Shown here: in pieces, positions 43,587 through 56,227 of the stretch | Numbering within the stretch: position 1 is the stretch's first letter | Layout: every line of letters starts with the position of its first letter | DNA from: Sulfurospirillaceae bacterium | GTDB lineage: Bacteria > Campylobacterota > Campylobacteria > Campylobacterales > Sulfurospirillaceae | Length of the DNA: 64,000 nt | Direction of reading: 5' to 3' | Assembly: GCA_028684065.1 (NCBI GenBank) | Contig: JAQUGO010000001.1 | Coordinates: 372,001 to 436,000 of the forward strand | Position numbers and translations under genes: made by a program | Notes under the pieces: generated by a model | Databases searched by the model: none | Told to the model about the DNA's origin: nothing | Seen by the model: the letters and a program-made list of their open reading frames with translations, nothing else

Positions 43587-44723
43587 TCAACGGCTTTTCT
43601 TAAGTAAGAACTCTCGTCCTACCTTGACCATTGGTGTGCCACCATAAGCAATGATGTCAGCAGTGGCATTGGTTTCGCTCCATTTTTCAGGCAGAAATGA
43701 GCCTGTTCCGATGACGTCAATCGGTGCTTTTGCATACGCCATAGAACAGCATTTTTGCGGTGTAAACCCAGAAGAGGCGATAATGCGCACTTTTGGGAAT
43801 CCTGCATGATCAAGCGTTTCTCGCATATGCCATATCGCCGCAGCCGAAACACCTGTGCCGATAAGGTCGTGTAGTTCCGCTTCGGTACGATAATCACGCA
43901 GTGCTTCGGGAGCATGTCGTCCTAAGACATTGTAACTCTCTTGCGTATCAAGCCCTTCTAAAAAACGTCCTCCGTGGGTGTCAAGACGTACCCCGATTTT
44001 TCCATCGTGCGCTAAATCAGAATAGGCATTACAGACTTCTAATGTATCAGTGATTTCACGACCGAAATAATCCGCCAAAATGGGGATATTTTCATCAGGG
44101 AAACATGTATGGAACATCTCAGCGGCCTTAAGCGTTGAGCCTGCATAGCCAATAAGTGCGTGCGGAACCGTGCCCAATCCCTTTTCACGACCAAAGAAAT
44201 GCGCCGTTGCATCGGTGGCATTGCCGATAAATCCCACCGCTCCAAGTGTACGTTGCGCCACTTTAGAACCAACCGATGCCCCATACGCCATCATCTCAGC
44301 CATTTGTGTGCCTGCACAATGGCGCGCATCCATCGCTAAAAAAGCAACACTAGGAAGCGTTTGGCACATCTCATAAGCGTTGTAAGCCGCCACACACGCT
44401 GAGCCTAACTTTTGTAAAATAAGCGTTTCAAGTTCCACCAAAAGCGCAAAAGAACCACTAAGATAAAACAAAGGCTCACCCGCGCCAACCCAGTCACCCT
44501 CATTATGCGTCGTTTCAATGGTAACGCTAAAACCACGACTGGCCGCTTGCGCTTGAATCCACTCAGTAGCTAAACGTGTCGCGCAAAGCACGGGGCGGCG
44601 TAAGAAAAAAGCATACGTAACTTTTGTATCACCAAAATGCTCAATAAGTGTGCGAGTATTGGAAAAATATTTATCGGTCCATGCGCTCACATTAATAGCG
44701 CTTAGTTCGTTACTGTTTTGCAT
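43587..44723 (-). CDS. Nicotinate phosphoribosyltransferase-like protein
   Basis: 378 residues of the NAPRT/quinolinate phosphoribosyltransferase fold: DKYFSNTRTLIEHFGDTKVTYAFF at the start, a lid region (EGDWVGAGEPLFYL), LAMDARHCAGTQMAEMMAYGASVGSK, GVRLDTHGGRFLEGLD with the PRPP-binding Asp, and IIASSGFTP, VIGTGSFLPEK. Would make nicotinate mononucleotide for NAD salvage. Shorter than E. coli PncB and closer to the archaeal-type subgroup. Separated from the next operon gene by about 110 bp. Confidence 0.82.
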   Translation of the reverse strand: MQNSNELSAINVSAWTDKYFSNTRTLIEHFGDTKVTYAFFLRRPVLCATRLATEWIQAQAASRGFSVTIETTHNEGDWVGAGEPLFYLSGSFALLVELETLILQKLGSACVAAYNAYEMCQTLPSVAFLAMDARHCAGTQMAEMMAYGASVGSKVAQRTLGAVGFIGNATDATAHFFGREKGLGTVPHALIGYAGSTLKAAEMFHTCFPDENIPILADYFGREITDTLEVCNAYSDLAHDGKIGVRLDTHGGRFLEGLDTQESYNVLGRHAPEALRDYRTEAELHDLIGTGVSAAAIWHMRETLDHAGFPKVRIIASSGFTPQKCCSMAYAKAPIDVIGTGSFLPEKWSETNATADIIAYGGTPMVKVGREFLLKKSR

Positions 44724-44833: not shown

Positions 44834-47815
44834 TTAAAATATCGGACACTCTTTGCCGTAGCAATACTGGTTAAACTTCTTCTGGTCACATGTGACATCA
44901 ACTTCGGCTAAAAGCTTGACATGTAAGAACTTTTCAGAGAGTTTTGAAGCGATTTTTAACGCTGTCCAGACTTCACGGTGACAACAACGAGCTGCTTCGT
45001 ATTCGACGATTTTGCCAAGGACGGCATGTGTTACTTTTTGCGCGGTTGTACGTGCGTGGGAAGCGACAGGTGAGGATTCTAACAAAATAGCAAAGCCGAT
45101 ACCCACACCCGATGCCGCACCGCAAATACCTAAAAAACCACATGAGCCACCTATCACACTTGAACCTCGGGAAAGTGCTGTTTTAAGAGCACTTTTAGGA
45201 AGTTTTCCACCGCTATTACGATACGCTGTCACGATAATGGCAGGCACCATAGCATGATGTTCAGGTCCATGTTTTGGGATACTTGGATGCTCTCTTATCT
45301 GCCTAAAAAGCTTGAGCATATCTTTTTCATATGAATTTTCGCACAAATGCTCAATCACACTTAACGCTTCTTTACTATGGCATGCATCGCACACATAATG
45401 TCCCGATTCGCATGTCACACTCGTAGAGCTTGTAATCCCGCAATAATAGCACTCTGCTCTCTCTTCGTTAGTCTTATAGACTAACGCACTTTGGCACACC
45501 ATACAATTATGCATCTTTTTGGGAGAAAGATAAAAGGTCACTTTGGGCGTCGTTTTGAGTTCGGGTGGCAGAGCACATGCACATGTTTGTTCTTCTTGAT
45601 TGGTGACATTTCCCTTATCATCCACAATAAAGAACTCATCGCTGTAATGTTCTGCTATATTTTGAGGTAAATAACCTTTTTCACCTTGCATAATAATTGT
45701 ATCTTCGAGTATAAAGGCATCATGATTTCCTCTATATATCACGGCAACAGGCATGTCGTTTTTAGGTTTGTACGCCATAAAACTTAAAGAATAAAAGGGA
45801 TGTCCCTCAATAATACGATACACAAAACGTTTTAACAAACGGATGTCACGAAAACCGCTCTCTCGCAACAAGCCAACCAAATGAGTTTGGCTCAGAGCTC
45901 CTGCGATACATTCTCCGCTTAGCTTGGCATCATTACGTATTTTGGCGCTGGGTTCATCTTCACATACCACATCCGAAACCACCAATCGGCCACCTGGTTT
46001 GAGCACTCTAAATATCTCTGCAAAAAGATTTCGTTTATGATTGGAAAGATTAAGCACACAATTAGACGTAACGACATCATACGCATTTGCTTTTTCAGGC
46101 AAAGCTTCGATATACCCTTTGACAAAAGAGAGATTGGCATATCCTAAATTTTGTGCGATAGGTTCAATTCCTTCATGCGCTAGTGTTAGCATTGAATCCA
46201 ACATATCAACACCGCGAACATGCCCACTACGACCTACTAATTTTGAAGCGATAAAACACTCAATGCCTCGTCCTGACCCCAAATCCAACATCGCCTCGCC
46301 CTCTTTAAGATTGGCTTCTAAGATGGGACTGCCACAGCCATATCCACGAAAACGTAAGTGAGGAGGAATGTGTTGCAGGTACGATTCTTCATAGCATACG
46401 GGATTTAAAATATCCTCTTTAGTATCTAAAGCGGCTTCGTTGTAAAAGGATTTGACCAAACGAAGCGATGCGTTTTCCCCTGTTGCAATTAAGCAATTGG
46501 CATGCGTATGCGCCACACCTTCATGAGCGCCACAGCGGTACAGTACGTCTCCCATTTCTAATTTCACATGTGCCTCGTGGGCATGTAAAGCATACTTTTT
46601 AGCTTCGGACGTGATAAGCCAAAGAGCCAATTGTTCCAAAACAATTTCATAAGGGTCATTGCCCATAAATGTTTTAGCATGCATATAACTATGATCCAAA
46701 TCTCCACCGCCTAAGATAAAGCGAAGCGGATGTGTAAGAGAAAGAACACTTTGCGATTGAATCTTCTGAGCGATACGGCAATGCAATGCTTCTTCAATAC
46801 TACGCCCATGCATACACACCTCATCGATACCAACGAGTGCCGCACTTGGGTAAAACTTCCCATCAAATCCTAATGCAAGAGAGTTTCTACCCGAACTTGA
46901 ACCATCATGTACCGTACCTTTAGGAGCATAGATTTGTGTTTTAAGGGCTTCAATATTGTCAATCACAATACCTAGCTTTTCAGCTTTTTCATGAGCTTCA
47001 ATAAGGATTTTGACAAGTTTTTTAGGTTCAATATAATCCTCTTTACCACCTCTACCACGAATAAAGTACCAAAGCAGATGTAAGTGCTTCGCGCCTAAAG
47101 ATTCGACTAACGTCACTAATTCATCCATAGTTTGAATATTTGTCGGATGCAAACATACAGAGAGTGAAAAAAGATAACCATTAGCGGTAAGCCATACTAA
47201 ATTATGTTTAAGTTTATCAAAGCTACCATTTCCGCGTAAGCTATCGTGCTGTTTTGGCAACCCATCTAAGCTGATTTGAAAATGCAACCGCTCTTTTGGA
47301 AAATCCTTACGTGTCAAGATTTTTTCCAGCAAAAGTCCATTGGTCAAAATCACAACTTCCGTTCCCTTCATTGCCAAAATCGTCTCTATGACTGCAAGAA
47401 TTTCAGGATGAACCAAAGGTTCGCCCCCACTGAGGATAAAAAGTCTACATCCTAATGCGTAGGCTTCTTGAAGATATTTTTGTATCGTTTCAAGGCATAA
47501 AGTATCTTTTTCTTTGGGTGATGAGGAAAAAAGGCAATGGCTACATGTAAGGTTACAACGGTTAGTAAGATGTATCCAAAACTCGTCTAAATGAGGTGTA
47601 TGAGGGGCATGCACATACGCTGGAGGTTTGGGTAAGCGTGCGCGTAATTTGCGATAGGCTATACTTTGAGTATCACCCCTTTGTAAAAGGCCATCGGCTT
47701 TAGTATCAGGTACGAACCAATCCGCTCCTTTTTGGTACACATAGACACTTCTACCTTCATAACTCAGCCTTGCCCAATCCTTTATACTTTCATTACTTTT
47801 TTGAATGCTCTTCAT
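44834..47815 (-). CDS. Triple fusion: radical SAM + ArsM-like methyltransferase + Cys/His-rich DUF5714-like module
   Basis: About 993 residues from the ATG; a GTG eight codons upstream is possible, and residue numbers count from it. (1) Residues about 85-380: radical SAM domain, cluster motif CNLTCSHC (Cys95/99/102), FILSGGEPLVHPE, QISLDG. (2) Residues about 497-690: methyltransferase with LDLGSGRGIE. It keeps the arsenite-methyltransferase context YGCGSP (Cys502), SNCVLNL (Cys594), FRVLKPGGRLVVSDVV and GECIAGAL (Cys644), matching the three As-binding Cys of ArsM. (3) Residues about 778-1001: CMVC, CYYC, GHYVCDAC and HGPEHHAMVPAIIV, resembling DUF5714. Last gene of a rhodanese-TVP38-CCG-TVP38 operon, overlapping the previous gene. 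I infer radical-SAM-based organoarsenic or related sugar chemistry. Confidence 0.8.
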   Translation of the reverse strand: MKSIQKSNESIKDWARLSYEGRSVYVYQKGADWFVPDTKADGLLQRGDTQSIAYRKLRARLPKPPAYVHAPHTPHLDEFWIHLTNRCNLTCSHCLFSSSPKEKDTLCLETIQKYLQEAYALGCRLFILSGGEPLVHPEILAVIETILAMKGTEVVILTNGLLLEKILTRKDFPKERLHFQISLDGLPKQHDSLRGNGSFDKLKHNLVWLTANGYLFSLSVCLHPTNIQTMDELVTLVESLGAKHLHLLWYFIRGRGGKEDYIEPKKLVKILIEAHEKAEKLGIVIDNIEALKTQIYAPKGTVHDGSSSGRNSLALGFDGKFYPSAALVGIDEVCMHGRSIEEALHCRIAQKIQSQSVLSLTHPLRFILGGGDLDHSYMHAKTFMGNDPYEIVLEQLALWLITSEAKKYALHAHEAHVKLEMGDVLYRCGAHEGVAHTHANCLIATGENASLRLVKSFYNEAALDTKEDILNPVCYEESYLQHIPPHLRFRGYGCGSPILEANLKEGEAMLDLGSGRGIECFIASKLVGRSGHVRGVDMLDSMLTLAHEGIEPIAQNLGYANLSFVKGYIEALPEKANAYDVVTSNCVLNLSNHKRNLFAEIFRVLKPGGRLVVSDVVCEDEPSAKIRNDAKLSGECIAGALSQTHLVGLLRESGFRDIRLLKRFVYRIIEGHPFYSLSFMAYKPKNDMPVAVIYRGNHDAFILEDTIIMQGEKGYLPQNIAEHYSDEFFIVDDKGNVTNQEEQTCACALPPELKTTPKVTFYLSPKKMHNCMVCQSALVYKTNEERAECYYCGITSSTSVTCESGHYVCDACHSKEALSVIEHLCENSYEKDMLKLFRQIREHPSIPKHGPEHHAMVPAIIVTAYRNSGGKLPKSALKTALSRGSSVIGGSCGFLGICGAASGVGIGFAILLESSPVASHARTTAQKVTHAVLGKIVEYEAARCCHREVWTALKIASKLSEKFLHVKLLAEVDVTCDQKKFNQYCYGKECPIF

Positions 47816-48440
47816 ACCTATCCAATCGTTTTTTAACACTATTTTTTAACACCATTGAGAACACCACTAAAAACAGTAACAACGCTACGGCCATATAGAA
47901 CTCTTTGGTTCCAAAAGCCAGAGACTTCGCACCAATATTAGCATAGACTAAAACTCCTGGACTCATACCTAAAAGGGTCGCAAAGAAAAAATCACGATAG
48001 CGTATCGTTGAAAATCCAGCAGAGTAACTGATGATATTAAAAGGGACTAAAGGGACCAAACGTAATAAAAAAATCATAATAAATCCGTGGTTTTTAACAC
48101 TTTTTTGAAAATGAATCCATTTTTCATGGGCTAGTTTATCTCGCAACCATGTGCCATACGTTCGAGCGAGGTAAAAAGACAAACTTCCCCCACATAAAGC
48201 GCCGATAATGATATAAACACTTCCTGCATAAAAGCCAAAGATAAGCCCACCTGCAAGTGCCAAAATACCATCAGGAAAAAAAATAAGTGGTGCGAGAGTA
48301 AACAGTAAGATAAAAACCAAGGGAGCCAATAAGCCAAAGCTAAGCACAAAGGTTTTAATTGTTTCAACTTGTTGAAACGATAAAACACCCATCTTATAAA
48401 AAACAATCATCAACGCACTAAAAAGGGCAAACATTATCAA
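47793..48440 (-). CDS. TVP38/TMEM64 family membrane protein (second in operon)
   Basis: 215 residues with about six hydrophobic segments. The VTT/DedA-type core includes FFPDGILALAGGLIFGFYAGSVY, GALCGGSLSFYLARTYG, and RLVPLVPFNIISYSAGFSTIRYRDFFFATLLGMSPGVLVYANIGA. These are the family's re-entrant loops with conserved Gly, Arg and Pro. Family roles involve lipid or small-molecule movement across membranes. Start shares ATGA with the CCG oxidoreductase stop, and its end overlaps the radical SAM gene. It resembles the TVP38 protein encoded two genes upstream. Confidence 0.85.
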   Translation of the reverse strand: MIMFALFSALMIVFYKMGVLSFQQVETIKTFVLSFGLLAPLVFILLFTLAPLIFFPDGILALAGGLIFGFYAGSVYIIIGALCGGSLSFYLARTYGTWLRDKLAHEKWIHFQKSVKNHGFIMIFLLRLVPLVPFNIISYSAGFSTIRYRDFFFATLLGMSPGVLVYANIGAKSLAFGTKEFYMAVALLLFLVVFSMVLKNSVKKRLDRYEEHSKK

Positions 48441-49549
48441 TTTTTTAATGATGTATCCTTCAACATTGTTATCATCCGACGAGATTGGTAACGGTTATAC
48501 CATTTTTTGAAACTGCCTTGCTCCACTTGTTGACTTGGCATAGTAGGCGCAAAGATAAAATCCAAAAGGTGTAACCCATTTTTGCCCCCTTTACTCATAG
48601 ACTCAGTACAACTTTGACAATAGCTCACAATACTCTCACACTGGGTTTGGTTGGCGCGTGTGTGCATTTGTTCATAAGCTAAAACTGGATTTGTCAGTTC
48701 TAACATGCCGCCACTACCACAACATAGGGTTTTTTCACGATTCGCTTTAAATTCTTCGAAAGGCAAACCAATAGTATGCATAAGAGCTCGTACATCTTTA
48801 TGAATTTTACTCTCAAAACGGGTTGGACACGGGTCGTGCAATGCCACTTTGGGTAGATTAGTGTAACGTCCAACCATTTCTTTGGGTACACCAATCTCAT
48901 TGAGCACCGAGTAAAGCGAAACAATGTTGATATGCGGGGCATTGTTTTTGATGCTCATATAGCAGTTTTCACAAGCCGTCACCACGGTTGTCGCTCCCAT
49001 AGCAGCGAGGTCAGTCTCAAGCTGTGTATGATACTTTTGAAACTGCTCTATGTCCCCCATCATACGTGTTGGCGTTCCACAACATTGCTGAATGATACCA
49101 ATTCCTGAAAGCTTAGACCGCAAATAATCAAAAATCGTATAAACCAATTTTGGCGAATACGAAGCAAGAGCACACCCTGGCATAAATGCCATATGCGTGT
49201 ACTCACCTTGGGTAAATTTTTTGGTCGTCGAAAAAAGTTTTGAAAAACTACTTTTTTGGTGAAAGACCACGGCACCGTATCCGTATTTTTTCAAAACATT
49301 TTTTTGCGTTGCGTACTCATTTTTCGACTGGGTAAACACTTCACCAAAGTCAATATCTTTAGGACATACTTGGGCGCAAAGACCACATGTTGCGCATGAA
49401 AAAGCCATTGATGCTATTGGCTTTTGGGTCGTAAAATGATGCAAAAGTATTTTGGGAGAGACTGTAAAACTATAAAGCATAGGACATCCCTTCATACAGC
49501 TTTTACAATCAATACACTCTTCGTGAAATTTAGTAATTTTAACGTCCAC
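48437..49549 (-). CDS. (Fe-S)-binding oxidoreductase with two CCG domains (GlpC/HdrB-like)
   Basis: 370 residues. N-terminal two [4Fe-4S] sites: CIDCKSCMKGCPML and CATCGLCAQVCPKDI. Then two cysteine-rich CCG domains, seen as PGCALASYSPKL...QQCCGTPTRMMG...CENCYMSI and HDPCPTRFESK...LCCGSGGMLELTNP...SYCQSCTESM. This layout occurs in heterodisulfide reductase HdrD, GlpC and LutA. Substrate unknown; thiol/disulfide or quinone-linked oxidoreduction is expected. It overlaps the upstream TVP38 gene by 11 bp and the downstream one by 4 bp. Confidence 0.87.
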   Translation of the reverse strand: MDVKITKFHEECIDCKSCMKGCPMLYSFTVSPKILLHHFTTQKPIASMAFSCATCGLCAQVCPKDIDFGEVFTQSKNEYATQKNVLKKYGYGAVVFHQKSSFSKLFSTTKKFTQGEYTHMAFMPGCALASYSPKLVYTIFDYLRSKLSGIGIIQQCCGTPTRMMGDIEQFQKYHTQLETDLAAMGATTVVTACENCYMSIKNNAPHINIVSLYSVLNEIGVPKEMVGRYTNLPKVALHDPCPTRFESKIHKDVRALMHTIGLPFEEFKANREKTLCCGSGGMLELTNPVLAYEQMHTRANQTQCESIVSYCQSCTESMSKGGKNGLHLLDFIFAPTMPSQQVEQGSFKKWYNRYQSRRMITMLKDTSLKN

Positions 49550-50204
49550 GATAGGTCCTCTTAATCAAATAAACAAAAATTGTAACTGCAAACAAAATAA
49601 GCATGCCATATACTGCGGTTTGAAGGCCACCACTAAGCATCTCTCCTGCATACGAATAAACAAGGGTTGCGGGTAGTTGCCCAATACCCGTTGCTACGAT
49701 AAATGCACCTAAACGCATACTCGTAAGCCCAGCGGCATAACTGACCACATCAAAAGAGATAAAGGGTAGAAGTCTGGCAATTAAAATCGCATATACTCCA
49801 TGTTTTTCGAAAAAAGCGTCCACACTCTCTAGTGCCATTTTACTGGTCAGTTTTTGAACCGTTTCACGACCCAAAAATTTAGCAATGTAAAAACACAATA
49901 CCGCTCCGACCATCGCACTTGCCCATGAAAGCATCGCGCCATAAACCCAGCCAAACAGTGCCGCATTGGCAAAGGTAATCAAAAAAGCAGGTAATGGTGC
50001 CATAACCGATTGAAATACCATCAAACCAAAAGACACGAAGGGTGCTAAAAGGCCAAACGAGAGAATATACACCTTGATTTTTTCAATATCAAGCGTTTGA
50101 AATAAATCAATAAGCATCAAAAAATAATTTCGACTCGTTGGTAAAAGCATGAGAAGAAGGATACCGCCTAAAAGCAGTATCCATAGCGTCATTTTTTTTG
50201 ACAT
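49539..50204 (-). CDS. TVP38/TMEM64 family membrane protein (first in operon)
   Basis: 221 residues, about six hydrophobic segments. Core motifs: SVMAPLPAFLITFANAALFGWVYG, ASAMVGAVLCFYIAKFLGRE, and IARLLPFISFDVVSYAAGLTSMRLGAFIVATGIGQLPATLVYSYAGE. Related to, but clearly diverged from, the second TVP38 protein of the operon. Its start codon shares TAATG with the stop of the rhodanese lipoprotein gene, so it is translationally coupled to it. A pair of TVP38 proteins flanking an Fe-S oxidoreductase suggests a membrane-linked complex (inference). Confidence 0.85.
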   Translation of the reverse strand: MSKKMTLWILLLGGILLLMLLPTSRNYFLMLIDLFQTLDIEKIKVYILSFGLLAPFVSFGLMVFQSVMAPLPAFLITFANAALFGWVYGAMLSWASAMVGAVLCFYIAKFLGRETVQKLTSKMALESVDAFFEKHGVYAILIARLLPFISFDVVSYAAGLTSMRLGAFIVATGIGQLPATLVYSYAGEMLSGGLQTAVYGMLILFAVTIFVYLIKRTYRGR

Positions 50205-50644
50205 TATTGGGCTAAAACATCTTTAATTTTATCACGTGGCCAGCCATATTGACCATCTTTGAGCGTTAAAAGATTCTCTTTTTTAACACCATGGGATAAG
50301 TAAAAATCATATGCTCTATCTGCACCCCCACCACCTCTTGGACAAACGATAATAACCTTTTGATCAGGCTTAATCTCCGGTAAAAGCGCTGCTAACCGTT
50401 CTTTTTCCTCATCTGTTTTAACAGGATACGCATACGTAGAGATAGCACCTTTTAAATGTTCCTCACCAAAGTCTGGTTTTTCTTGGATATCAATCAAAAC
50501 TAATTTTGAAGCATCTTCACGTATCAACTTAGCTGTTTCATCCGCCGTAATGTAGTTGTATTTTGGATTTTCTTTGACTTTACCGCCACAACCTATAAGC
50601 AATAAAAGTGCAAAGGGCAATACCAACCATTGTGCAATTTTCAT
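50204..50644 (-). CDS. Rhodanese-domain lipoprotein
   Basis: 146 residues. N-terminal MKIAQWLVLPFALLLLIGC is a lipoprotein signal with lipobox LIGC, so the protein is anchored at the periplasmic side. The body is a rhodanese fold (KLVLIDIQEKPDFGEEHLKGAI, KVIIVCPRGGGGADRAYDFY) with Cys in the active loop CPRGGGGA and the late GQYGW. Would bind or transfer sulfur (or a chalcogen analogue). First gene of the radical SAM/TVP38 operon with AAGGAGA before the ATG, divergent from the solute-binding protein gene across a 209-bp region. Confidence 0.87.
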   Translation of the reverse strand: MKIAQWLVLPFALLLLIGCGGKVKENPKYNYITADETAKLIREDASKLVLIDIQEKPDFGEEHLKGAISTYAYPVKTDEEKERLAALLPEIKPDQKVIIVCPRGGGGADRAYDFYLSHGVKKENLLTLKDGQYGWPRDKIKDVLAQ

Positions 50645-50813
50645 GGATTTTCTCCTTGGGATAGTACTACATGTAAAGGATGGGGAGTTATCAAAGTGGG
50701 AGTTTCATGCACTCTTTTGATGTATGCTTAAACCTTAAGCCATTACATGAGTTGAATAGAATCATAATGTTTTCTTACTTATAAAAACATTAGGTATTTA
50801 TTATTAAAAATTA

Positions 50814-50822
50814 TGCTAGAAT
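50814..50822 (+). promoter_or_regulatory. Extended -10 promoter of the solute-binding protein / kinase / glycosyltransferase operon
   Basis: TGCTAGAAT, identical to the napA extended -10, 31 bp before the start codon; GGAGG follows as ribosome binding site. Confidence 0.6.
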
Positions 50823-50853
50823 TTATAAGAATATCACATGTGGAGGATAAATC

Positions 50854-51636
50854 ATGCGGCAATTAATAATTGTTTTCCTTCTACTTATGGGAATTCATAC
50901 GACTATAATGGCCGATGTCCTTGCTTCAATCCTTCAACAAAAAATATTAAAAGTATGCATTTGGCCTGAATATTACGGTATTTCATATGTTGACCCACGA
51001 ACACAAGAACTCAAAGGAATTGATGTAGATTTGGCCTATGCATTGGGTCAAGACTTGGGCGTGAAAATCTCATTTATTGAGAGTTCTTTTGCAACACTCA
51101 TCAGCGATATTGAAACAAAACGATGTGATATCGCGATGTTTGCCATCGGTCGCACACCAAAACGCATGGAAAAACTCAGCCTTACAACACCCCATCTCGC
51201 GAGTGATATTTATGCAATAGCGGCCAAAAGCAATCATCGTATACAACAATGGGAAGATATCGACAAACCTAATGTCGTTGTTGCTGTTGCCAAAGGCACG
51301 TATCATGTCGATGTTATGAAACAGAAACTTAAATATGCCAAACTTCTTATCGTAGATTCATTCCATGCTAGAGAGCAAGAGGTCGAATCAGGCCGAGCGG
51401 ATGTGTTTATGACAGATTATCCTTTTGGGGTACGAATGATTACAGAAAAAGAGTGGGCAAAACTTATAAAACCATCTAAACCCTTTCACACAACATTCTA
51501 TGGATGGGCGGTGTCACAAAACGAAGAGTCTTTTTTAGCCCGCATAGAATCATTTATCACAACAATCAAACATGATGGAAGGCTTCTTAAAGCCGCTCAG
51601 AAGAACCACCTTGAAGCAATCGTATTAAGCGAATAA
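50854..51636 (+). CDS. Periplasmic solute-binding protein, SBP_bac_3 family
   Basis: 260 residues with signal peptide (MRQLIIVFLLLMGIHTTIMA). The mature protein has the family pattern: KVCIWPEYYGISYVD, LKGIDVDLAYALGQDLGV (usually GfdvdLa), RCDIAMFAIGRTPKRMEKLSLTTPH and GRADVFMTDYP. Family ligands are amino acids and similar small molecules. No ABC permease lies nearby; four bases after the stop begins a membrane diguanylate cyclase with a periplasmic domain, so this receptor probably reports ligand to it instead of feeding transport (inference). Confidence 0.87.
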   Translation: MRQLIIVFLLLMGIHTTIMADVLASILQQKILKVCIWPEYYGISYVDPRTQELKGIDVDLAYALGQDLGVKISFIESSFATLISDIETKRCDIAMFAIGRTPKRMEKLSLTTPHLASDIYAIAAKSNHRIQQWEDIDKPNVVVAVAKGTYHVDVMKQKLKYAKLLIVDSFHAREQEVESGRADVFMTDYPFGVRMITEKEWAKLIKPSKPFHTTFYGWAVSQNEESFLARIESFITTIKHDGRLLKAAQKNHLEAIVLSE

Positions 51637-51639
51637 ACA

Positions 51640-53880
51640 ATGCATGCAATGATTCTTCATTCACATCGCTGGCGATGGCGATATATTTTACCAGCACTCC
51701 TTATGATAGGACTTACGATTGCAAGTATTATTATCACCCTTTCAACGCTTCGTAAAGAAGCTATTTCCACCCATCGCAATATTGCGAAGCTTCATTCCTA
51801 TGCCTTTGAAGATATTTTCACACAAACAATCCAAAGTATTGACCATACGATGGATCGTATTCCTCATTTAAGTGATGACAAAACAACACCTCCAATCCTT
51901 GGTGATATTTTTAAAGATGTACTTCAAAATAGTCCGTATCTGCGCTCCTTTTCACTCGTTAATCAAGAAGGTGTTATTGAATTTAGTTCACATCAAGGCA
52001 ATCAAGGTAAACATATTATTTTAGATCATTTTTTGCCTATTCCTTCATTTAACAACATCCCTTTCCTCCGTATTGGCGCCCCATGGATAGGACGTGATTT
52101 TGATACGGCACAGCCTTCTTCCGACCAATCCATCACGCCCTTAGAAAGTACCTATTTTATTCCTATCATCAAAAAAGTTTTTTTTGACAAGCAACCCTAT
52201 TATCTCCTTGCGGCGCTTAATCCAGACTATTTTACCAACCGCTATACGCAAGTACTACCTAGTCCTAATGGTCTCGTCTCATTGTGGCGACTTGATGGAA
52301 TTTTATTGCTCTCTACAGACCTGACTCTTCCAATTGGTTTTTCCCATTTTGCTACTATCCATGAACAAGAAGATATGGTAAGGCATCTTGAACGCTCTTC
52401 ACATAACGCTATTAGCGCTTATCGATTGGCTAAATTAATGCCTTATATCGTCGAAGTTAAGATGGATCAAAACATTGCTTTAGGATATTGGGATCAAGAA
52501 CGCAATAAGATGCTCCTAGTTAGCATCCTTTTTATCTCTCTGTCAGGAATTTTAGGATTACTTCTGATTTTACGTACCGATAAAGAAGCGCAACGTCAAA
52601 AACAACAAAATTCGTATGAACACCAATTTCGTGTTGCCATGGAAGCAACACAAACAGGACTATGGACCTGGAATAGACAAAATGGTGTCATTACATGGGA
52701 TGAACAGTGTTATCATCTTTTAGGTTATAAGCCTTATTCCTTTGCAGCTTCTTTAGAAATGATTCAGTCCCTTACCCATCCTGAAGATGCTCAGCCTATG
52801 TTTTCCTCTAGGCTAATGCAAATTGATCTTCAAGGATGGTTTCTTGTTGAAAGACGGATGAAACATGCCAATGGTGCATGGGTTTGGGTACAAGTTCGTG
52901 GACGAGTTATCGAATATGACAAAGACAATATACCACTTTTTTTAACGGGTGTTTATATCAACATTGATACGCAAAAACAAGCTGAACAACTACGCTTAAA
53001 CTCGGTTGCTTTTGAAACAGAAGATGCTGTTTTAATAACCGATGCAACAGAAAAAATTATCAAAGTCAATCAAGCCTTTACACGAATTACAGGCTACACT
53101 TCTGAAGAAGTCATAGGAAAAACCCCTCGTATTCTCAAATCAGGTGAACACAATAGTGCCTTTTATAAAATGCTGTGGGAGTCCCTTTTAGAAAGAGGTT
53201 ATTGGCAGGGAGAACTGTGGAATAAACGTAAAAATGGTGAAGTTTATCCTGAACATATTACGATTACCGCTGTGAAAAATGCAGAAGGTATCGTGACTCA
53301 TTTTCTGGCTAATTTTAATGATATCACTTTGCGTAAAGCGGCGCAAAGACAAATCCATGAAATGGCATATCGAGACTCTCTCACGCGTCTTGCCAATCGC
53401 CATTTACTCCAAGAAAACATTCTCAAAGCCATTGAAAGAAACCAACAACAGCAAATTTATGGAGCTCTTATTTTTATCGACTTAGACCAATTCAAGCAAC
53501 TCAATGACACTCATGGTCATGATGCTGGCGATATGTTACTGATTCAAGTCTCAAGACGACTGCAAGATTGTACACGACAACACGATACCGTTGCGCGATT
53601 AGGAGGAGATGAATTTGTCATCTTACTTGAAGACCTTGGTTCTAACATTATGCAAGCTACCGAACAAACACACTCTGTGGCGCATAAAATTCTCACTTAT
53701 CTCAATAAACCTTTTGATTTAGCACAAGGAAACTATCATGTGGGGGCAAGCCTTGGAATCACACTCTTTGGTAAAACAATGCAAGATGCCGAGACCCTTA
53801 TCAAACAAGCCGATATAGCGATGTATACTTCCAAAGACAAAGGCCGCAATCAAATCTCTTTTTTCACGCCAGAAAGTTAA
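51640..53880 (+). CDS. Membrane diguanylate cyclase with periplasmic sensor and two PAS domains
   Basis: 746 residues. TM1 is near 10-32, then a periplasmic region of about 250 residues (Cache-like: LRSFSLVNQEGVIEFSS), TM2 near 290-310, PAS 1 (GLWTWNRQNGVITWDEQCYHLLGY), PAS 2 (AVLITDATEKIIKVNQAFTRITGYTSEEVIGK), then GGDEF. The active motif RLGGDEF is intact, with an I-site RQHD five residues before it. It ends after the GGDEF domain without EAL. Makes cyclic di-GMP, with input from the periplasm and probably from the solute-binding protein encoded just upstream. Operon continues 2 bp later into the kinase gene. Confidence 0.9.
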   Translation: MHAMILHSHRWRWRYILPALLMIGLTIASIIITLSTLRKEAISTHRNIAKLHSYAFEDIFTQTIQSIDHTMDRIPHLSDDKTTPPILGDIFKDVLQNSPYLRSFSLVNQEGVIEFSSHQGNQGKHIILDHFLPIPSFNNIPFLRIGAPWIGRDFDTAQPSSDQSITPLESTYFIPIIKKVFFDKQPYYLLAALNPDYFTNRYTQVLPSPNGLVSLWRLDGILLLSTDLTLPIGFSHFATIHEQEDMVRHLERSSHNAISAYRLAKLMPYIVEVKMDQNIALGYWDQERNKMLLVSILFISLSGILGLLLILRTDKEAQRQKQQNSYEHQFRVAMEATQTGLWTWNRQNGVITWDEQCYHLLGYKPYSFAASLEMIQSLTHPEDAQPMFSSRLMQIDLQGWFLVERRMKHANGAWVWVQVRGRVIEYDKDNIPLFLTGVYINIDTQKQAEQLRLNSVAFETEDAVLITDATEKIIKVNQAFTRITGYTSEEVIGKTPRILKSGEHNSAFYKMLWESLLERGYWQGELWNKRKNGEVYPEHITITAVKNAEGIVTHFLANFNDITLRKAAQRQIHEMAYRDSLTRLANRHLLQENILKAIERNQQQQIYGALIFIDLDQFKQLNDTHGHDAGDMLLIQVSRRLQDCTRQHDTVARLGGDEFVILLEDLGSNIMQATEQTHSVAHKILTYLNKPFDLAQGNYHVGASLGITLFGKTMQDAETLIKQADIAMYTSKDKGRNQISFFTPES

Positions 53881-53882
53881 AC

Positions 53883-54938
53883 ATGCCTTTATTCGATGTT
53901 TTAGAGTATATCCATTCCACGCCTATTTTAAAAGCATATTTTGGTATGGAGCCTTTACAGATTAAGGAAATAGGTGATGGTAATCTCAATTTTATTTTTA
54001 GAGTAGGCACACCATACAAAAGTCTTATCATCAAATATGCCCCTCCCTATCTTCGGTTGCTAGGTAAAAATTTTAAACTCCCACAAGAGAGAGTTTGTGT
54101 TGAAATGCACACCATGTCTTACTTTAAATCCATAGCCCCAGAGTATCTCCCCACTATTTATCACCTCGATGAGAAAGCATTTTTATTCGCGATGGAGGAT
54201 TTAGAAGGATTTGAGACTTTACAAAAAATGCGACTAGATAAAAATATTTCTACTGAAGTCTATGAAAAACTAGGCGATTTTTTAAAAAAAGTCTATACAC
54301 ATACACCGCCTTTACATGCACGTGACTATTATGAAAATGCTACCCTGAAACAAATCAGTGAAAACTATATATTTCGTTTTCCTCATATAGCCAACCATGA
54401 AGCGCTTTGCGTACCAGAATTTTTTAAACCACTTCCAAAAGATGAAGCCTTTTTGGAAGGGATAAAAGCCTTAACCCATCTTTTTTTATATGCCAATGAA
54501 ACTCTTATCCATGGGGATTTGCATACTGGCTCTGTGATGATAAAAGAAAATACCATCGCTATTATTGATGCAGAATTTTCTTTTTTTGGACCAGTAGGTT
54601 TTGATATGGGAAATCTCTTTGCACACATTCTTTTTGGTGAAATTTATGCTTTGTTAGAAGGTAAAATTGTTGACTGGGAAGAAGCTATTCGTACACTATG
54701 GCAAGGTTTTGGTGGCAATGAAAAAATCCTACAAAGTAGTGTGGGTTTTTGTGGCGCTGAACTTTTCCGCCGTTTACTTGTACCTTCTAAAGCTAAACCT
54801 TTAGAAGCTATAACCCAGCAAAAGCATAAAGAAAAAGCGTATCATTTGGTTGATGCCCTTTGTATTGATTTGGTTTCAAACTATACCCATATCACGCATA
54901 TCGAAGATTTCCTTACACGTCTCAAAAGGTATCTATGA
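53883..54938 (+). CDS. S-methyl-5-thioribose kinase-like sugar kinase (MtnK family)
   Basis: 351 residues of the aminoglycoside-phosphotransferase/MtnK fold. IKEIGDGNLNFIFRV is the MtnK nucleotide-binding loop, followed by SLIIKYAPPYLR, the Brenner-type catalytic motif LIHGDLHTGSVMI and metal motif IIDAEFSFFGPVGFDMGNLFAHI (DAEF where MtnK usually has DPEF). MtnK phosphorylates methylthioribose at C1. No other methionine-salvage gene is adjacent; the next gene (overlapping by 4 bp) is a double glycosyltransferase tied to arsenosugar loci. A 5-substituted ribose other than methylthioribose, such as an arsenical one, is therefore a plausible substrate (inference). Confidence 0.82.
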   Translation: MPLFDVLEYIHSTPILKAYFGMEPLQIKEIGDGNLNFIFRVGTPYKSLIIKYAPPYLRLLGKNFKLPQERVCVEMHTMSYFKSIAPEYLPTIYHLDEKAFLFAMEDLEGFETLQKMRLDKNISTEVYEKLGDFLKKVYTHTPPLHARDYYENATLKQISENYIFRFPHIANHEALCVPEFFKPLPKDEAFLEGIKALTHLFLYANETLIHGDLHTGSVMIKENTIAIIDAEFSFFGPVGFDMGNLFAHILFGEIYALLEGKIVDWEEAIRTLWQGFGGNEKILQSSVGFCGAELFRRLLVPSKAKPLEAITQQKHKEKAYHLVDALCIDLVSNYTHITHIEDFLTRLKRYL

Positions 54939-56227
54939 ATCAAAATGCCCTCATCTATTTTATCAAAGCACCCCTTTTAGGTAAAGTTAAAACGCGTCTT
55001 GCTAAAAGCATTGGCGACGAAATGGCGCGTATGTTTTACGAATCCTTTGTAAAACGACTTTTGAGTCGTCAACCTCAAAACTGTGATATTTTGATTGCAT
55101 ATGATGATGGTGGGCTACCATGCAAACTCCCTACCTATTTGGAAAATCGCACGCTTTTTTTACAAGCCAAAGGCGATTTAGGGTATAAAATGAGTGACTC
55201 TTTTAAGCACGTTTTCAACCTTGGATACACCCAAGCTATACTAGTAGGTTCCGATATTCCTGACGTGGATGAAGTGGTTTTAGAAGAGGCTTTAAGCCTG
55301 TTAAATGATAGTGATGCGGTGCTCTGCCCTACTTTTGATGGCGGCTATTATCTGATTGGGTTTCATGCAAAGACCTTTACATGTAAAGCTTTCGAAGGCA
55401 TTATGTATAGTCAAAATGATGTTTTTGCCAAAACGCTACAACAACTCTACCCTTTGCATGTAAAGCACGGGAAGATGCTTAGAGACATTGATACGCTTGA
55501 TGATATCAAAGCCTACGCACCACAGATTTTGCCACAACTTCCACACATCAGCGTTATCATTCCGGTCTATTATGAAGATGAAACATTGCTTCAAACGATT
55601 AAAACAATACACCAAAATGCAGAGCAAAATAACTTCGAAGTCATCGTCATTGACACACTTGAAAATACCACACTCAATCGTTTACAAGTCAAGGATAAGG
55701 ATAGTCGAATAGGATTTGCACCTAAAGGTAGAGCCTCGCAGATGAATGAAGGAGCACTCATGGCACAAGGTGACATTCTTATTTTTGTGCACGCCGACAC
55801 GCACCTTCCAAAAGCATGGGATACCTTGATTGAAAAAGCCTTACATGCAAACAAAGCAGGCGCATTTTCACTCGGCATTGACGACACGCATTACGCCCTT
55901 CGCGTTATCGAAACCATGGCAAATATTCGCACAAGAATGACGAAAATCCCCTACGGCGACCAAGTCCATTTTTTGACCGCATCGTTTTTTAAAGAACTAG
56001 GTTACTACGCAAAAATCCCTTTGATGGAAGATGTAGAGCTAATGAAACGCATCAAAAAACAAGGTGAGCCAATCGCCCTTTTGAAGGAAAAAGTCTTAAC
56101 ATCATCACGAAGATGGCATAAAGAAGGCATTTTTTACACTACACTTCGAAACCGAGTTATCAGCTTTTTATATTGGGTAGGCATTCATCCAAAGCACTTC
56201 ATAAAGCGTTATAAATCGCACCGTTAA
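54935..56227 (+). CDS. Fusion of TIGR04282 and TIGR04283 glycosyltransferases
   Basis: 430 residues. The N-terminal about 195 match the TIGR04282 (CofC-like nucleotidyl/glycosyltransferase) family: FIKAPLLGKVKTRLAKSIG, ILVGSDIPDV, CPTFDGGYYLIGFH, RDIDTLDDI. The C-terminal about 230 match TIGR04283 (GT2): ISVIIPVYYEDETL, PKGRASQMNEGALMAQGDILIFVHADTHLP, PYGDQVHFLTASFFKELGY, MEDVELMKRIKKQG. Both families were named as rSAM/selenodomain-associated transferases and are now annotated with arsenosugar biosynthesis. The start overlaps the kinase stop (ATGA). Last gene of its operon. Expected to attach or process a sugar made by the neighbouring enzymes. Confidence 0.87.
   Translation: MNQNALIYFIKAPLLGKVKTRLAKSIGDEMARMFYESFVKRLLSRQPQNCDILIAYDDGGLPCKLPTYLENRTLFLQAKGDLGYKMSDSFKHVFNLGYTQAILVGSDIPDVDEVVLEEALSLLNDSDAVLCPTFDGGYYLIGFHAKTFTCKAFEGIMYSQNDVFAKTLQQLYPLHVKHGKMLRDIDTLDDIKAYAPQILPQLPHISVIIPVYYEDETLLQTIKTIHQNAEQNNFEVIVIDTLENTTLNRLQVKDKDSRIGFAPKGRASQMNEGALMAQGDILIFVHADTHLPKAWDTLIEKALHANKAGAFSLGIDDTHYALRVIETMANIRTRMTKIPYGDQVHFLTASFFKELGYYAKIPLMEDVELMKRIKKQGEPIALLKEKVLTSSRRWHKEGIFYTTLRNRVISFLYWVGIHPKHFIKRYKSHR

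Follow-up and report, generated by a model that had tools for sequence, protein, structure and literature searches.

A putative arsenosugar-type gene unit of Sulfurospirillaceae with a fused radical SAM-methyltransferase protein and a methylthioribose kinase-like enzyme

A 64,000-nucleotide stretch of the genome of a Sulfurospirillaceae bacterium (GenBank assembly GCA_028684065.1, contig JAQUGO010000001.1, positions 372,001 to 436,000 of the forward strand), analysed at its full length and called the window here, carries at positions 44834-56227 a divergent gene unit that probably encodes a pathway of the arsenosugar type, in which a single fused protein would do the work of both ArsM and ArsS; its chemical steps are inferred. 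The assembly to which the window belongs (2.67 Mb) is a Sulfurospirillum. The fused protein, FUS, joins radical SAM, ArsM and DUF5714 domains; its principal partners are GT, a TIGR04282-TIGR04283 protein, and a sugar kinase resembling methylthioribose kinase (MTRK). Arsenosugar-type clusters are known; what is new here, with good support as far as pathway logic goes, is a core enzyme that has been replaced and fused, together with a kinase step. A bolder proposal can be put forward only tentatively: that the radical SAM half of FUS is a new, non-ArsS enzyme making the bond between arsenic and the 5'-deoxyadenosyl group without the extra cysteines of ArsS, and that arsenosugars are completed by way of 5-dimethylarsinoyl-ribose-1-phosphate and a nucleotide-activated arsenosugar, through a nucleosidase and a kinase here and through MtnP in Proteobacteria. 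The core features, with window coordinates, are these:

44834-47839, minus strand: FUS, radical SAM, ArsM-type methyltransferase, cysteine-rich linker and DUF5714 (Pfam and NCBIfam matches; 12-sequence alignment)
47108-47572, minus strand: radical SAM core of FUS, residues 90-244, CxxxCxxC (PF04055)
45812-46426, minus strand: ArsM domain of FUS, residues 472-676 (NF008823, 208 bits)
44840-45355, minus strand: DUF5714 domain of FUS, residues 829-1000, preceded by a cysteine-rich ribbon (PF18978, 189 bits)
53883-54938, plus strand: MTRK-like sugar kinase (TIGR01767, 230 bits; cut-off 275)
54935-56227, plus strand: GT gene, TIGR04282 and TIGR04283 fused (both domains above curated cut-off)
54950-55507, plus strand: TIGR04282/DUF2064 domain, CofC-like, probable sugar-1-phosphate nucleotidyltransferase (154 bits)
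55547-56212, plus strand: TIGR04283 GT2-type glycosyltransferase domain (220 bits)

Conservation, loss and replacement of the unit

The distribution of the three proteins was followed through 249 genomes of the order, GT being counted at E<1e-20 and the kinase at E<1e-60 to the window proteins. FUS occurs in 13 of them (the window's own included), all in one family, and searching 84,980 species genomes gave 15 FUS loci, every one in Sulfurospirillum, Sulfurospirillaceae or campylobacterial/proteobacterial metagenome bins. TIGR04167, the ArsS family, is present in exactly four of the 249 genomes (G128, G232, G072 and G177), none of which has FUS; the 17 genomes with GT are exactly the 13 with FUS and these four with ArsS, and the 14 with the kinase are the 13 with FUS and G128. 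The sequence-only reading made from the window had treated the two divergent halves as one locus, and a check set beforehand asked if they are regularly apart. They are not: kinase and GT lie within ~10 kb of FUS in 13 of 13 FUS genomes, and the halves are separated only in G128, the genome with an ArsS-ArsM fusion.

The layout is the same in every member of the genus that has FUS: GT and kinase run one way, diverging from an operon of rhodanese, VTT, CCG, VTT and FUS genes. The remaining parts of this common layout are, in the window:

47793-48440, minus strand: TVP38/VTT membrane protein 1 (PF09335)
48437-49549, minus strand: Fer4-dicluster/CCG oxidoreductase (PF02754, PF13534; NF045663, 253 bits)
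49539-50204, minus strand: TVP38/VTT membrane protein 2 (PF09335)
50204-50644, minus strand: rhodanese-like lipoprotein (PF00581; lipobox LIGC and a CPRGGGGADR loop in the translation)
50726-50740, unstranded: palindrome GCTTAAACCTTAAGC, putative operator lying where the two halves diverge (conservation; single genomic copy)

Among the departures from the layout, one locus (L106) has one VTT gene fewer, another (L108) has a rearranged gene order with the genes still together, and L109 is reduced to a minimal core of GT-kinase and FUS between different flanks. Three members of the genus without FUS are also without kinase and GT. One of the three, G214, retains the scar of a deletion (L115:8856-9245) in which the 3' ends of GT and FUS are joined and everything between them is gone. 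Since the genomes are related and the counts not independent, these joint losses and the replacement by ArsS-ArsM described next weigh more than the counts. Relatedness is also what speaks for the view that the genes stand together by chance, or because a conserved region was inherited in common, and have no joint function, for the members come mostly from one genus; set against the joint absences, the removal of a whole unit in G214, the minimal triplet of L109 in its different surroundings and the ArsS-linked counterparts in another family, that view is very improbable. The association, conserved across Sulfurospirillaceae, is not chance. A second TIGR04282/TIGR04283 copy in one metagenome bin that has the Sulfurospirillum-type unit (G116:C23, L116) was left unused: its neighbours read as those of an unrelated high-G+C organism, and the contig is probably a contaminant.

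In G128 the rhodanese-VTT-CCG-VTT operon is preceded by the same palindrome as in the window (at L112:4927) and is followed, on the opposite strand, by genes for an FAD oxidoreductase and a 663-residue ArsS-ArsM fusion (TIGR04167, 360 bits; no DUF5714), with the kinase and GT pair on a separate contig (L113). FUS and ArsS-ArsM thus appear to be substitutes for each other, because G128 keeps operon, putative operator, kinase and GT but has ArsS-ArsM. In G232 an ArsS-ArsM fusion adjoins a TIGR04283 gene, TIGR04282 is encoded elsewhere, and the special kinase is missing; this genome has a true MTRK with mtnA.

The fusion protein

FUS is 1001 residues long if read from the GTG at 47839; the first in-frame ATG, at 47815, lies closer to the start of FUS in relatives. 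An alignment of 12 FUS sequences shows the radical SAM cysteines C95, C99 and C102 to be invariant, as are C502, C594 and C644, the arsenic-binding cysteines of the ArsM domain (Cys72, Cys174 and Cys224 in CmArsM; PMC12608789); a conserved Cys/His motif (C436, H444, H446, C449) marks the segment between the radical SAM core and the ArsM domain. The latter scores below the curated cut-off of 263 bits for NF008823 and aligns with the solved ArsM structures 4kw7, 4fr0 and 5evj with 3 of 3 arsenic-binding cysteines in place (E 4e-34 to 4kw7/4fr0). FUS is the sole ArsM (E<=1e-25) in the genomes that have it.

The radical SAM half, judged by sequence, is not ArsS. No FUS genome has a TIGR04167 match at E<=1e-40, and for FUS itself TIGR04167 is not among the 25 best families (ArsS was to be recognized by more than 300 bits and C-terminal cysteines, neither of which FUS has); this half scores best against the Rv1681 family, with 91 bits where the cut-off is 380. 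The sequence-only reading of a variant in which the methyltransferase and a different radical SAM enzyme are one protein is supported.

The C-terminal 232 residues of FUS match NF045648, the family of the selenoprotein MbdU, with 127 bits (cut-off 600), and no in-frame stop of the selenocysteine type is present in the window's FUS reading frame. In one genome (G020) FUS is split into open reading frames of 726 and 269 residues, the break separating DUF5714 from the rest. Homology of DUF5714 to the C_GCAxxG_C_C protein found after ArsS in Campylobacteraceae-like clusters was considered and dropped: profile comparison gave a probability of 3.8 over 15 columns, a loose analogy only.

The kinase, the TIGR04282 domain and a proposed pathway

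Although it falls short of the TIGR01767 cut-off, the kinase retains the MTRK catalytic motifs EIGDGNLN, HGDLHTGS, D-x-E-F and RR. Its predicted structure (pLDDT 90) has MTRK chains as its 15 best structural matches (TMq 0.81-0.87; 0.84 to 2pyw). Methionine salvage processes 5'-methylthioadenosine (MTA) by MtnN followed by methylthioribose kinase, or by MtnP alone (PMC8102628). The MTA/S-adenosylhomocysteine (SAH) nucleosidase MtnN was found in 23 of 23 genomes tested and MtnP in none of the 23; a cell so equipped would be expected to turn a 5'-substituted adenosine into a free 5-substituted ribose. In a tree, the 14 kinase members form a single branch (support 100/100) apart from 16 MTRKs of the order. 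The isomerase gene mtnA is absent from all 14 of their genomes and present in 8 of 8 true-MTRK genomes checked, adjoining the MTRK gene in seven and lying ~5 kb away in the eighth. Grouping with the methionine-salvage MtnK, the second point fixed in advance (mtnA alone was looked for, not mtnB), is thus not what was found, and a salvage role for the kinase appears unlikely because the clade is separate and mtnA is missing from its genomes. The plasmid matches to the kinase that were listed have 27-30% identity, and the annotated ones are labelled mtnK.

The kinase and GT genes overlap by 4 bp. Both GT domains exceed their curated cut-offs (134 bits for TIGR04282, 182 for TIGR04283). The sequence-only reading had called the product a double glycosyltransferase, and for its first domain this description gives way to another: TIGR04282 resembles CofC, a guanylyltransferase (PF01983, TIGR03552), with a 27-bit F420_cofC match in the window protein and a match to 3cgx, a 'nucleotide-diphospho-sugar transferase', at E 5e-33, and so looks more like a nucleotidyltransferase than a second glycosyltransferase. 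Solved structures of GT2 enzymes and of DPM synthase match the TIGR04283 domain weakly.

A pathway of six steps can be proposed from these parts. The ArsM domain would convert As(III) to dimethylarsenite; the radical SAM domain would take over the bound arsenical and join the arsenic to a 5'-deoxyadenosyl group, a role suggested purely by the replacement seen in G128. The housekeeping MTA/SAH nucleosidase would then strip off adenine to leave 5-deoxy-5-dimethylarsinoyl-ribose, the MTRK-like kinase would phosphorylate C1, and the TIGR04282 domain would convert the 1-phosphate to a nucleotide sugar, the last two steps following from gene logic and family function. The TIGR04283 domain, finally, might move the arsenoribosyl group onto an acceptor of the glycerol or lipid type. 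Electron or sulfur supply and the membrane side of the process may fall to the CCG protein, the rhodanese lipoprotein and the TVP38 pair; these roles, like that of DUF5714, are guesses. TVP38/VTT proteins are lipid scramblases, which would fit a lipid-linked product. That a methylthioribose-type kinase acts on a 5-substituted ribose ahead of glycosylation had already been suggested from the window, and pathway logic (a clade of its own, no mtnA, the overlap with GT) supports it, the product being inferred.

The kinase might instead be a helper that salvages the 5-deoxyribose or methylthioribose thrown off by radical SAM chemistry, with no part in assembly. 5-Deoxyribose, which MtnN releases from 5'-deoxyadenosine, is indeed a substrate of methylthioribose kinases (PMC8102628), and 5'-deoxyadenosine is a by-product that the neighbouring radical SAM enzyme would make. 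The known salvage routes, however, need an isomerase, and mtnA is wanting in every kinase genome; the kinase keeps company only with GT and either FUS or ArsS-ArsM, and in other ArsS clusters a kinase is fused directly to TIGR04282. Salvage is accordingly an unlikely account of it.

Those other clusters lie in G177 (L117) and G072 (L118) and are of a Campylobacteraceae-like ArsS type: TIGR04282 shares one chain with an APH-type kinase domain (L117:8940-10451 and L118:7848-9296, PF01636 being over the cut-off in L117 and just under it in L118) and is adjoined by TIGR04283, CCG, ArsS and a C_GCAxxG_C_C protein. The fusions suggest that kinase steps also exist outside Sulfurospirillum; on plasmids no APH-TIGR04282 fusion was found. 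In proteobacterial plasmid ArsS clusters, those of Burkholderia glumae, Acinetobacter and Cupriavidus, the gene near TIGR04282/TIGR04283 is that of MtnP, the MTA phosphorylase, which would, by analogy, yield the same 1-phosphate as nucleosidase and kinase together:

L145:2093-2974: MtnP
L146:12515-13378: MtnP
L142:13382-14356: MtnP

Several findings count against the proposed pathway. The profile match between the radical SAM part of FUS and ArsS covers 141 columns, the common core only, and the invariant cysteines of ArsS beyond that core (C242, C257, C293, C296 and C304 in A7) lack a counterpart in FUS, which reads Ser at the C257 position, within 'DGxFYPSAA'; adenosyl transfer by FUS is open to doubt on this account. 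The AlphaFold model of whole FUS has a mean pLDDT of 57 and is not interpretable. G072 and G177 have complete ArsS/TIGR04282/TIGR04283 clusters and no ArsM at E<=1e-25, so that the partner set is not always tied to arsenic methylation within the genome; ArsS in these two may possibly act on imported methylarsenic or on another substrate. In Hymenobacter, Thiodictyon and Pseudanabaena neither MtnP nor an MTRK/APH-type kinase lies within 9 kb of arsS; in the Hymenobacter stretch xylA is accompanied by a gene for an FGGY carbohydrate kinase.

The missing cysteines and the absence of a TIGR04167 match leave room for a different arsenic reaction of the radical SAM half, either transfer of a 3-amino-3-carboxypropyl group, as for arsinothricin, or radical methylation, with GT taking an ordinary sugar; in arsinothricin a different As-C bond is indeed formed by a radical SAM enzyme (PMC12159101). 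What makes this improbable is that in G128 an ArsS-ArsM fusion takes the place of FUS while operon, putative operator, kinase and GT are unchanged, and that an ordinary sugar leaves a ribose-type kinase without a role. The MbdU match of FUS and the want of ArsM in G072 and G177 could likewise be taken to mean that the ArsM label misleads and that the substrate is selenium, tellurium, antimony or something non-arsenical. The arsenic-binding cysteines and ArsM homology retained in FUS, and the ArsR/SmtB-family gene within 9 kb of a cyanobacterial TVP38-pair/ArsM/ArsS cluster, make such a substrate distinctly improbable, and an arsenosugar-type product is the preferred reading.

Flanking genes and comparison with known systems

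In the window two further genes separate the palindrome from the kinase, with gaps of 2-3 bp from each other and from the kinase gene:

50854-51636, plus strand: SBP_bac_3 solute-binding protein, window-only insert (PF00497)
51640-53880, plus strand: PAS-PAS-GGDEF diguanylate cyclase, window-only insert (PF00990, PF08447)

They are missing at this site in every relative mapped, including the closest, L132, in which FUS is 81% identical over the available stretch and the kinase is immediately beside the palindrome. The two genes seem to have been inserted into this operon in the window strain and are rejected as part of the unit; the sequence-only reading, which had counted both as members, was otherwise right about gene content, coordinates, strands and overlaps. 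The palindrome GCTTAANNNTTAAGC, a putative operator by its sequence and placement, occurs once in the whole of its own genome and at the same position in the same-genus loci mapped, and was not found in the sister-genus loci L108 and L109; inside the unit there is no regulator gene. A nicotinate phosphoribosyltransferase-like protein, well under family cut-offs, is encoded at window positions 43587-44723 and often found downstream of the unit; it too was rejected as a member, as it persists in G214 after deletion of the unit and its distance varies. In two loci (L102:13287-15202 and L110:12445-14360) genes for a MIP/aquaglyceroporin-like protein and a CobW-like GTPase are read directly downstream of FUS, and the aquaglyceroporin-like protein might serve as an arsenite channel.

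The papers found follow arsenosugar biosynthesis as far as the adenosylation of arsenic by ArsS (Cheng et al. 2021, as cited in PMC12159101). Among open-licence papers no genes were found for the later ribose steps, nor any paper on arsenosugars with kinase or phosphorylase steps or on DUF5714, TIGR04282 and TIGR04283 together. The two gene solutions outlined above (Campylobacterota with a dedicated sugar kinase, Proteobacteria with MtnP) would both, on paper, lead to a ribose-1-phosphate feeding a CofC-like nucleotidyltransferase, and the kinase step thereby helps to explain the whole class of arsenosugar clusters. Two predictions follow: that radical SAM enzymes reach the As-C5' bond by a second route, independent of the first, and that Sulfurospirillum species produce organoarsenicals.

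With the known arsenosugar clusters (ArsM, ArsS, TIGR04282, TIGR04283, TVP38 and an FAD/CCG oxidoreductase) the window unit has in common TIGR04282, TIGR04283, the TVP38 pair, the CCG protein, the rhodanese lipoprotein and the ArsM domain; it differs in that ArsS is replaced by a radical SAM domain from a different subfamily, which forms one chain with ArsM and DUF5714, and in that an MTRK-like kinase is added. FUS and ArsS share a radical SAM core, the tie to ArsM and the partner genes, whereas the TIGR04167 match and the C-terminal cysteines are confined to ArsS. The kinase has the fold and catalytic motifs of MtnK (TIGR01767) but is ~50 residues shorter, scores below the cut-off, and belongs to a separate clade in genomes without mtnA. 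The double selenoprotein MbdU shares with FUS the cysteine-rich ribbon and the DUF5714 match, at a score far under its family cut-off and without a selenocysteine-type stop on the side of FUS. The ArsS-ArsM proteins of G128 and G232, genomes of the same bacterial family, likewise have radical SAM and ArsM in one chain with the same neighbours; their radical SAM half, unlike that of FUS, is true ArsS, and they lack DUF5714.

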